Source: Pseudomonadota bacterium
Lineage (GTDB): Bacteria > Desulfobacterota > Syntrophorhabdia > Syntrophorhabdales > Syntrophorhabdaceae
NCBI GenBank assembly: GCA_026388275.1
Contig: JAPLKB010000035.1
Coordinates: forward strand, 1 to 37,663
Reading direction: 5' to 3'
Length of the DNA stretch: 37,663 bases
Part shown: piece by piece, positions 1 through 32,004 of the stretch
How positions within the stretch are numbered: position 1 is the stretch's first letter
How the letters are laid out: each line of letters begins with the position of its first letter
Position numbers and translations under genes: made by a program
Notes under the pieces: generated by a model
The model's input: only the letters and a program-made list of their open reading frames with translations
Database searches by the model: none
Told to the model about the DNA's origin: nothing

Positions 1-298
1 AATTCTGCTGAAGTTCCAGGTTAGGAATCCGTTCATAATTCCACCGATGTCCGTTCCAATTCTTGTTTTTGTAGTATCCTCTCCAACCAAGGTCTACATC
101 ATGATAGAAAGTTGGAACATTGTTATAATAACCCCAGCCCCTGTCATAATATTGTGAGCGATACCAAAAACCATTATTTAGACGCCACCAGAAACCATTC
201 CAGAAAAACAGGTCAGCGCTTATATCAGGAACAACATACACATTGTCCGTATCAGGTATCACTATCACAACCGGAGGTGCCTGAAATGCGAGCGGCGG
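1..298. repeat. Direct repeat of lipoprotein domain, copy 1 (complete form)
   Basis: Bases 1-50 equal 574-623, and 149-298 equal 624-773 with a single mismatch (218 versus 693). Bases 51-148 are unique to this copy. The near identity indicates a recent duplication within the lipoprotein coding region. Confidence 0.9.
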
Positions 299-649
299 AG
301 GCGGCGGCTGGACATAAGGCGCTCCTTTAGGTTGCTGACCTTGCGGCGGCTGGACCTGAGGTGTTCCCTGAGGTTGCTGACCTTGAGGTGGTTTCTTGGG
401 ATCATGGACCTGAATCGGCTGATCTTGCGGCGGCTGACCCTGATGCTTTTTTTGATACTGTTCTTCTCTTTGACGTCTCAGCTCCTGCCTTTGTTGTTGG
501 GGTCGAGGCTGATAGTTCTCTACTCCCCAGCGTTTTTTGCTTTCCCAATAACGATTATCTTGCCAGCTTTTCCAATTCTGCTGAAGTTCCAGGTTAGGAA
601 TCCGTTCATAATTCCACCGATGTATATTGTGAGCGATACCAAAAACCAT
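1..649 (-). pseudogene. Lipoprotein locus, downstream part: proline/glutamine-rich and aromatic-rich open frame continuing past the window edge
   Basis: On the minus strand an open frame runs from an ATG at 649 to position 1 with no stop. It reads through a basic, Gln-rich stretch (about 571-430), a Pro/Gln-rich linker with repeated PQGQQP-like units (about 430-300), and an aromatic-rich domain (about 298-1) rich in Trp, Tyr, Asn and Gly. The 649 ATG lies inside the duplicated domain and the frame lacks an export signal, so it is probably the displaced 3' part of the lipoprotein gene that begins at 887. Restoring the 98 bp missing from the upstream repeat would join the two frames into one long lipoprotein with two copies of the aromatic domain. 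I do not recognise a named family. Whether 649 is ever used as a start is unknown. Confidence 0.55.
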
Positions 650-773
650 TATTTAGACGCCACCAGAAACCATTCCAGAAAAACAGGTCAGCACTTATAT
701 CAGGAACAACATACACATTGTCCGTATCAGGTATCACTATCACAACCGGAGGTGCCTGAAATGCGAGCGGCGG
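574..773. repeat. Direct repeat of lipoprotein domain, copy 2 (98-bp deletion form)
   Basis: This is the second copy of the segment at 1-298. It lacks the 98 bp corresponding to 51-148, with the junction at 623/624. Ninety-eight is not a multiple of three, so the deletion shifts the frame and causes the stop at 606. Confidence 0.9.
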
Positions 774-887
774 TGGCAGCGGTGGGCTATAGACAGAACC
801 ACCAGGTGCCATAGGAACAACTACACATCCCGTTAGTAAGGTTAATGTTAGTAAGGTTAATGCAAGGGGAATCATCATTCTTTTCAT
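606..887 (-). CDS. Frameshift-truncated lipoprotein with signal peptide
   Basis: A 93-residue frame starts with a Lys/Arg N-terminus and a Leu/Thr-rich hydrophobic stretch ending in a lipobox (Leu-Leu-Thr-Gly-Cys; Cys at residue 21), so the product should be a lipid-anchored envelope protein. A Pro-rich segment follows, then the start of an aromatic domain with the motif NGFWWRLNNGFWYRSQY. I chose the ATG at 887 rather than 896 because GGAGG (897-901) sits 9 nt upstream of 887 but directly abuts 896. The frame stops at 606 because 98 bp present in the downstream copy (51-148) are absent at 623/624, which shifts the frame. The short product may be non-functional. The function of the family is unknown to me. 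Confidence 0.6.
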   Translation of the reverse strand: MKRMMIPLALTLLTLTLLTGCVVVPMAPGGSVYSPPLPPPLAFQAPPVVIVIPDTDNVYVVPDISADLFFWNGFWWRLNNGFWYRSQYTSVEL

Positions 888-15072: not shown

Positions 15073-15178
15073 AGCTACATAGCTCACATGGTGAACGAGA
15101 GGGGGAGGCTCCGACGGCCGGGGGACCCACCCTGTGAGTGGGTCGCTGGAGGGGGCGACGTGAGCCCCAGTAATAGAG
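15073..15178 (+). repeat. Dispersed hairpin repeat, family 2, isolated copy (A)
   Basis: The unit begins with a hairpin CTCAC (15083-15087)/GTGAA (15091-15095), continues through GAGAGGGGGAGGCTCCGAC, a variable stem GACCCAC/GTGGGTC, then GGAGGGGGCGACG and a terminal GTAATAGAG. The same order is found in copies C and B of the tandem array at 31559-31945. It is non-coding, of unknown function, and lies downstream (3') of nrpR. Confidence 0.7.
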
Positions 15179-30298: not shown

Positions 30299-31509
30299 AC
30301 AAAACAATACTATCATGGTGTTTGTTCGACTTTGCCAATTCAAGCTATTCAGCAGTTATAGCAGCCACAATCTTTCCTGTTTATTATGCAAATGTCATTG
30401 TCGGTAATTCTGCCGGCATGGGTGACGTTTGGTGGGGAAGAGCAATATCGGTAAGCATGGCTATTGTTGCTATAACATCTCCTTTTCTTGGAGGTATTGC
30501 CGATTACGCAAAGATACGAAAGAGACTGCTTTTATTCCTTACCCTTTTATGCATTGCTGCTGTGGCTCTTTTTTCTTTTCTCAGCAAAGGTATGGCCATA
30601 GAAGGGTTTATTTTAATAGTTCTTGCAAATATTGGAATGGAAGGCGGTCTTGTTTTTTATAACTCTTTTCTGCCTGAAATTGTTCAACCGACACATCAGG
30701 GCAGAGTTTCTGCATGGGGTTTCGGGATTGGATATGCAGGCTCAATATTTTCGCTTCTTCTTGCGCTTTTGCTTGTCCGCTACGAAATGATTGACATTAT
30801 ATGGCTTATGGTAGCACTATTTTTTGCCGTTTTTTCTCTGCCTGCCTTCATTTTTCTTCCAAAAGATCCAAGGGTCGGAACAAAGATATTTATTTCGGCA
30901 ATAGAAGGGTTTAGCCAAACATGGGGGCAGTTAAAAAAGATGTGGCAGAATAAAAATCAGAGAAGATTCCTTATAGCCTACCTTATATATGAGGATGGTG
31001 TAAATACCGTCATAGTATTCTCAAGTATTTTTGCTGCAACCACCCTCGGTTTTAAATCCGAAGAATTAATCTATATGTACCTTGTTGTGCAGGCTACAGC
31101 CCTTGCCGGCGTATTTTTTATGGCCAGATACATTGACTACTGGGGACCCAAAAAGGTGATCCTGCTTTCCCTGATTTTATGGATTGCTATAACAACTGCC
31201 ATATTTTTTGTTCATGGAAAATTTTTGTTCGCAATAATAGCTTCTATTGCGGGGTTTGGACTGGGCACGGTACAGGCTGCAACAAGGGCTTTTTACACTC
31301 AGTTCGTATTGCCGGGCAAGGAATCGGAGTTTTTCGGCGTTTACAGTCTTGTCGGTAAATCATCTGCAATAATGGGACCGCTTGTTTTCGGGTATCTTTC
31401 GTCGACCTTAGGGAGTCAACGACCTGCTGTTTTTTCAGTAGCCCTGTTTTTCATTCTGGGTTTTGTCATAATAAAAACCGTCAGGGGTGGACAACCTAAT
31501 GTTACTTGA
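30295..31509 (+). CDS. UMF1/Atg22-like major facilitator transporter
   Basis: 404 residues with about 12 hydrophobic helices. The opening SWCLFDFANSSYSAVIAATIFPVYYA is the signature of the UMF1/Atg22-like MFS family, and AIVAITSPFLGGIADYAKIRKR carries the MFS cytoplasmic loop motif. It is an inner-membrane protein; substrates in bacteria are unknown, although Atg22 exports amino acids from the vacuole. It is translationally coupled to larE by the ATGA overlap, but a functional link is not established. Repeats follow its 3' end. Confidence 0.85.
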   Translation: MNKTILSWCLFDFANSSYSAVIAATIFPVYYANVIVGNSAGMGDVWWGRAISVSMAIVAITSPFLGGIADYAKIRKRLLLFLTLLCIAAVALFSFLSKGMAIEGFILIVLANIGMEGGLVFYNSFLPEIVQPTHQGRVSAWGFGIGYAGSIFSLLLALLLVRYEMIDIIWLMVALFFAVFSLPAFIFLPKDPRVGTKIFISAIEGFSQTWGQLKKMWQNKNQRRFLIAYLIYEDGVNTVIVFSSIFAATTLGFKSEELIYMYLVVQATALAGVFFMARYIDYWGPKKVILLSLILWIAITTAIFFVHGKFLFAIIASIAGFGLGTVQAATRAFYTQFVLPGKESEFFGVYSLVGKSSAIMGPLVFGYLSSTLGSQRPAVFSVALFFILGFVIIKTVRGGQPNVT

Positions 31510-31558
31510 AAATTCAATAGCCCATAGATATATTGTAATATATCTTATGGCCTTATAC

Positions 31559-31945
31559 TCACGAGGGAGGCAACGCAAGCACGGTGTGCATAGTGTCATA
31601 CCAATTCGGTTTCATGCATAGAACAAGGCGACGACGACGAGCCGACGCAGGCGTACTACCAGTACGTCGAGGAGCGCGAAGAGGAGGCAACGAAGTTATA
31701 TGATTGAAGGCGAATTGGTATCAATATGACAAATAGCTTGCACAGCAAGCGAGAAGGGGAGGCCGGGGTACCCGCTTGCGGGTCGTGCTTTGCTGATAGA
31801 GGGGGCGACGCAAGCCCGGTGTGCATAGTGTCAATGTGATAAATAGCTCACAAGGTGAGCGAGAGGGGGAGGCTCCGACAGCTTTGCTGGTGGAGGGGGC
31901 GACCGGGTACCCGCTTGCGGGTGTCCCGGTAATAGAACAGCGAAA
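31559..31945 (+). repeat. Tandem array of dispersed hairpin repeat family 2 (partial copy D, copies C and B)
   Basis: D (31559-31597) is a 3' remnant; C (about 31724-31834) and B (about 31835-31945) are fuller units. D and C both end in GGTGTGCATAGTGTC. C and B begin with AAATAGCT plus a short hairpin, then GAG-A/G-(G)n-AGGC and GAGGGGGCGAC. Copy A at 15073-15178 is the isolated relative. A MITE-like element separates D from C. C and B each carry a GGGTACCCGCTTGCGGGT hairpin, at different internal positions. Together with the element at 31599-31720 the array fills most of the 31510-32004 intergenic gap. Confidence 0.75.
31599..31720 (+). mobile_element. MITE-like element copy 2 (122 bp) with TCA target duplication
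   Basis: The ends, with one flanking base, are ATACCAATTCG (31598-31608) and CGAATTGGTAT (31711-31721), a perfect 11-bp inverted repeat. TCA stands on each side (31596-31598 and 31721-31723). The unoccupied target is visible nearby at 31820-31846, where GTGTGCATAGTGTCAATGTG continues without interruption. The element has no coding capacity. The inner GACGACGAGCCGACGCAGG is shared with copy 1 at 1768-1863. Confidence 0.85.
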
Positions 31946-32004
31946 CGGGAAGGATAAGACCAAAATAAAATATCCGTTTTGCCTATAAAATAAGGGGGAA
32001 GCAA

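Follow-up and report, generated by a model that had tools for sequence, protein, structure and literature searches.

The repeat units of the window

The stretch of DNA analysed here (37,663 nucleotides, referred to as the window) carries three copies, A, B and C, of a dispersed repeat unit of about 77–78 nt, and a covariance model search of the window returned exactly these three matches (Table 1). The unit consists of three hairpins in series, H1, H2 and H3, and reads TAGC, H1, the linker GAGARGGGGWGG, H2, H3 (GGGGC/GCCCC) and AnTAATA or AATA(G); it becomes longer where optional extra hairpins are present. Its boundaries lie at CC|AGC and CCCCTAYAATA, directly outside which the information content of 39 Nitrospirota copies is at background. 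Where units form arrays, these are head-to-tail.

Table 1. Repeat units and associated elements in the window
Feature	Position	Strand	Basis
Copy A, whole unit, long-H2 form	15079–15175	+	cmsearch, model R1, E 1.5e-17
Copy A, H1 GCTCAC-ATG-GTGAAC, one C.A mismatch	15082–15096	+	sequence, alignment to model
Copy A, purine linker GAGAGGGGGAGG	15097–15108	+	sequence
Copy A, H2: CTCC..GGAG base and extra inner hairpin around GACCCACCCTGTGAGTGGGTC	15109–15151	+	sequence; short-form comparison
Copy A, H3 GGGGC-GACGTGA-GCCCC	15152–15168	+	sequence, covariance model match
Unit 3' part remnant and array linker; direct repeat of 31801–31833	31566–31598	+	repeat search
Palindromic MITE-like element, 124 bp, ATACCAATTCG...CGAATTGGTAT, within array	31598–31721	.	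repeat search
Copy C, whole unit; CGGGGTACCCGCTTGCGGGTCG hairpin replaces part of H2	31733–31825	+	cmsearch, E 5.4e-10
Copy C, H1 GCTTGC-ACA-GCAAGC	31736–31750	+	sequence
Copy B, whole unit; hairpin CGGGTACCCGCTTGCGGGTGTCCCGG replaces H3 arm	31843–31934	+	cmsearch, E 1.3e-18
Copy B, H1 GCTCAC-AAG-GTGAGC	31846–31860	+	sequence
Copy B, H2 CTCCGACAGC-TTT-GCTGGTGGAG	31873–31895	+	sequence, structure test

An earlier note on this DNA had described covarying hairpin arms in the three copies. The H1 strings that it quoted, CTTGCACAGCAAG (31737–31749), CTCACAAGGTGAG (31847–31859) and CTCACATGGTGAA (15083–15095), lie where it placed them, and so do GACCCACCCTGTGAGTGGGTC (15124–15144), GGGGGAGGC (at 15101 and 31865) and GGAGGGGGCGAC (at 15148 and 31892). 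The H1 arms do covary across copies, although in copy A one C.A pair is broken (GCTCAC/GTGAAC). The linking blocks, which had been called fixed, are nearly but not strictly so, because one G is missing from copy C (GGGGAGGC, 31756–31763), which also carries GAGGGGGCGAC in place of GGAGGGGGCGAC. The pairs GACCCAC/GTGGGTC in copy A and AGC/GCT in copy B had been read as variation of a single stem; this was mistaken, the former being an extra hairpin inserted inside H2.

Hairpin modules are swapped between sites: CGGGTACCCGCTTGCGGGTG is found in three different places, and the hairpin that replaces the usual H3 arm in copy B is related to the CGGGGTACCCGCTTGCGGGTCG hairpin of copy C. Some units of the window's own genome (C10:61440–61860 and C11:9360–9830) contain a hairpin-rich insert of about 140 bp (GGACGAAGGACGTTCAGTCGCTATACTCCTTCGGACG...), which is probably another repeat family. 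A further long hairpin, H0 (TAGATTCCCACGGGCAAGCCCGTGGGAATCTA and its variants), is frequently found directly beside the unit, on the left, both in Nitrospirota and in some relatives; it was seen at six loci (L098, L100, L207, L263, L268 and L271), with compensated variants such as TAGACTTCC..GGAAGTCTA. Near the contig start, within window positions 1–791, 1–50 equals 574–623 and 149–316 is 96% identical to 624–791, which could be a coding repeat or a duplication at the assembly end.

Covariation and the folded strand

For the structural analysis we took 51 short-form units, drawn from many genomes including that of the window, which were selected solely by the fixed linker blocks, so that the arms of H1 and H2 were free to vary. 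In these units 92.3% of cells are paired in the three-hairpin structure, and 93 cells show double changes, compared with 25.4 ± 6.1 after shuffling and 5–18 when the partners are slid; the excess of compensatory change that the earlier note had expected of further copies is therefore present. All of the covariation is carried by H1 and H2, while H3 is nearly invariant and for that reason tells little on this point. The signal persists when the window's own genome is taken alone: 12 double changes fall in H1, where 1000 shuffles gave a mean of 2.4 and a maximum of 7, and 16 fall in H2, where the shuffled mean was 3.5 and the maximum 9. It is also present among other members of the window's family.

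Run alone, RNAalifold recovered H2 and H3 and missed H1, owing to the G.A that occupies two H1 positions in many copies. Among 120 distinct units, 50 have a joint G.A/A.G in H1 and approximately 55 have Watson-Crick or wobble pairs there, with few intermediates, such that H1 often carries a tandem G.A in place of two Watson-Crick pairs, set between C and G (CGAG/CGAG). Tandem G.A mismatches in this context stack well in both RNA and DNA. In unique H2 stems, G.U outnumbers A.C by 45 to 3 (binomial p 1e-10, which, like the other p-values given here, is optimistic because copies within a lineage share ancestry). The covariation, the one-sided G.U wobble and the tandem G.A that replaces paired bases together give strong support to the conclusion that one single strand, the + strand as RNA or ssDNA, is under constraint rather than a double-stranded site. 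This supports in part the earlier proposal that the repeats function as folded DNA or RNA: the support concerns the constraint on the fold and does not extend to a function for the host.

Matching arms can also arise by mutation alone, since template-switch correction of quasipalindromes copies one arm from the other and so mimics covariation, and the visible exchange of hairpin modules (CGGGTACCCGCTTGCGGGTG at its three places, and the exchange, described below, of the apical hairpin of a MITE for the unit) fits such a process. Correction of this kind, however, leaves the arms fully Watson-Crick paired and does not distinguish between the strands, whereas here the wobble is strongly one-sided, an A.G mismatch persists in H2 as does the tandem G.A in H1, and loop size, linker and H3 are constant over two phyla. 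We therefore regard it as a rather improbable source of the pattern.

Distribution

A similarity search of the window's own genome (3.53 Mb) found about 80 matching pieces, and a two-block pattern had at least 43 exact matches there, whereas the reversed control pattern had none. The two-block pattern occurs in 19 of the 40 genomes searched as relatives, across 12 genera, and public genomes under the labels Syntrophus, Nitrospirae, Proteobacteria and Acidobacteria contain it as well. Copy-rich genomes, with 50–73+ copies each, belong to the window's own family and to part of the Nitrospirota. With the covariance model, 13 of 297 sampled genomes of the window's phylum were positive, mostly from one family, the outliers being a distant genome whose only copy is perfect (G060) and a genus with four weak matches. 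Of the Nitrospirota, 17 of 296 genomes were positive and six of them rich, two reaching 73 and 52 copies. The positives in Acidobacteriota amount essentially to one genome, in addition to two weak matches. Occurrence is patchy, and many close relatives are without copies.

The carriers are mostly MAGs, and the three copies of the Acidobacteria MAG, which may be contamination, lie on two short contigs, as would be expected if chimeric assemblies or bins shared the same contaminating repeat. This explanation is already largely refuted, since copies are embedded in long contigs, where native genes surround or contain them, including single copies in contigs of 338 kb, 373 kb and 2.5 Mb, and the Nitrospirota copies, at 73+, form a sequence subfamily of their own; as an account of the repeat as a whole it is barely credible.

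No viral, plasmid or phage carrier of the unit was found in IMG/VR, PLSDB or INPHARED. In Rfam, the repeat had no match above the gathering score in a search of the whole window, where the sole match was a tRNA outside the repeat, nor any at E up to 5 in positions 31500–32000, and a string search of the available literature with the element's blocks gave no relevant match. That the repeat belongs to no known family, as the earlier note had it, holds across these searches, while in its manner of working the unit is of the REP/RPE kind. It is apparently an undescribed element of roughly 78 bases, now dispersed over two or more bacterial phyla.

Insertion sites and mobility

At several orthologous sites a genome of the window's genus (G001) has no insert, most clearly where an empty ...GCAAAGTAAGGAGGCGG stands against a filled ...GCAAGATAAG[insert]TAAGGGAGGCG; at the second locus of the window it has half a unit and at the first locus none. 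Further empty sites emerge from a comparison of two Nitrospirota species (G322 and G317), and in one intergene of this pair (L284, L294) the unit is present in opposite orientations, apparently because it entered the same spot twice independently.

In four genomes of Nitrospirota, a protein gene that we take, from its sequence motifs, to be DabA (DUF2309) contains an in-frame copy of the unit. The insert encodes AREGEAPPAKPEEGATRAP or close variants and lies directly before the conserved CIDVRSEPFRR segment, at a place where about 26 other homologues have a short loop and no unit. In one further genome (G505) the same loop holds a different long insert, which suggests that it is an insertion hotspot. 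The empty sites in relatives and the in-frame DabA insertions, as read from these comparisons of sequences, indicate that the unit is mobile.

In the flanks of 149 copies, inverted matches are near chance level, and so, a few long ones apart, are target-site duplications as a general rule; one empty/filled pair has a possible TAAG target duplication. Direct repeats of 23–58 bp flank only a few copies, and the arrays repeat the unit plus its flank, in keeping with tandem amplification.

The unit is also nested in another element. The end motif of the 124-bp, ACCAATTC-ended MITE that lies in the window array (31598–31721) has 34 matches in the window's genome, and many copies of this MITE occur in relatives. 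Elsewhere in the genome, in at least seven places, a whole unit stands where the MITE would have its apical hairpin, and in one case H1 alone does; these composites offer the unit another way of spreading. A full-length parent IS with the MITE ends was not seen, and an autonomous IS carrying these ends was discounted, there being no ATACCAATTCG pair 1–2.5 kb apart in the window's genome.

Gene context

Gene contexts were taken from simple ORF calls in 85 cases. The upstream gene is co-oriented with the unit in 63 and opposed in 22 (p 1e-5), no significant bias is seen in the orientation of the downstream gene (50:35), and between codirectional gene pairs 37 copies are sense and 9 antisense (p 4e-5). 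On this bias, the unit lies mostly in the 3' regions of transcripts, where REPs have likewise been reported (PMC3733652).

Such a position, with strong hairpins and wobble pairing on one strand, is what would be expected of an RNA that serves the host, namely a 3'-UTR or intercistronic stabiliser of mRNA, or a processing or termination signal, which regulates the adjacent genes and spreads passively. Against this, the positions of the units differ even among species of one genus, some copies are antisense, in divergent regions or inside genes, a U-tract is absent after H3, and the distribution is patchy, with many close relatives devoid of copies. We judge this interpretation unlikely.

Search for a mobilising enzyme

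Short dispersed hairpins downstream of genes recall REP/BIME-type repeats moved by a RAYT (Y1 HUH) transposase; moreover, GGAG precedes the H3 hairpin and Y1/RAYT genes occur in 20 of 26 genomes. However, PF01797 (Y1_Tnp) had no match in three copy-rich genomes (G025, G595 and the window's own), these being draft MAGs in which loss or contig gaps are possible, and no unit was found near 20 Y1 loci, with flanks of about 2.5 kb where contigs allowed. The arrays, furthermore, are head-to-tail rather than inverted pairs. Mobilisation by RAYT/Y1 was accordingly set aside as very improbable, and Y1_Tnp, the one family surveyed, provided no mobilising enzyme.

Five RAYT-like Y1 genes of Nitrospirota (L316, L318, L320, L321 and L333) are among several Y1 loci whose flanks, where read, have in place of the unit inverted ends of the GGGGTCA type, for example AAAGGGGTCAAGTC...TGACCCCTT, which resemble the TIR-type RAYTs of PMC3733652. 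A gene found between inverted units (L104) was considered as an autonomous version of the element and rejected; it appears, from its sequence only, to be an IclR-type regulator.

Discussion

We consider it probable that the unit is a non-autonomous mobile repeat, whose three successive hairpins have to form on one particular strand in the single-stranded state, and the best reading of it is a selfish, RPE/REP-like structured element that is mobilised in trans. The folded strand, whether ssDNA or transcript, would be the substrate of a mobilising enzyme supplied in trans, and the fold may thus serve the element's own spread. Sense copies after stop codons would survive as harmless or mildly mRNA-stabilising 3'-UTR or intercistronic hairpins, arrays would grow by tandem duplication of the unit together with its flank, and hairpin modules may be exchanged at their tips through template switching. 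A bolder reading, possible and on the whole doubtful, is that the unit represents a new class of mobile element, which propagates as its own folded single strand by means of a non-RAYT enzyme, is shared by the window's lineage and the Nitrospirota, and is recognised, as RNA or ssDNA, via a three-hairpin structure that tolerates changes of sequence.

How bacterial palindromic repeats without a transposase, such as RPE and the CGTC REPs, are spread is an open question, and the present unit makes it testable, because it is well bounded, has hundreds of copies, empty sites and independent insertions in one intergene, and has a strand-specific fold. Two points can be put to the test, namely the strand on which recognition takes place and the gene whose occurrence goes with that of the unit. 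The unit is, furthermore, a structured, RNA-like motif, absent from Rfam, with which many genes of syntrophic and Nitrospirota lineages have been supplied at their 3' ends, and in the DabA case such an element has come to form a piece of a protein.

The mobile hairpins of organelles, such as double-hairpin elements and the GC clusters of yeast mitochondria, are selfish and GC-rich and insert in intergenic DNA and in other hairpins; the unit differs from these in residing in bacterial chromosomes and in having much longer conserved linker blocks. With MITEs (NEMIS, ERIC, RUP and similar) it shares being non-autonomous, short and intergenic and forming transcribed hairpins, but the core unit has neither terminal inverted repeats nor regular target duplication, and TIRs are found only in the composites nested in the ACCAATTC-ended MITE.

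The GTAG REP, BIME and REPIN repeats that go with a RAYT (PMC3733652, PMC3116915) resemble the unit in dispersal, position downstream of genes, compensatory stem changes and mosaic arrays. The unit, however, lacks the RAYT linkage, the inverted pairing and the GTAG tag, and is a compound fold of 77–78 nt, where the RAYT-associated REP is a single hairpin of 20–40 nt (PMC3733652, PMC3116915). The Rickettsia palindromic elements (RPE) and the CGTC-tagged REPs are likewise palindromic, short and dispersed and have no known transposase; they occur in several phyla and lie partly in frame in proteins, as does the unit in the DabA loop. RPE-4 and RPE-6, which fall in the CGTC families, have single stems of 8–9 bp and a CGTC tag and are mostly head-to-head dimers (Di Nocera et al. 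2013, PMC3733652), whereas the unit, set against that definition, has three hairpins and an AATAG end, is single or head-to-tail, and lacks the CGTC tag at both of its ends. The unit thus works like the RPEs and REPs and is, by their defining features, a member of neither.
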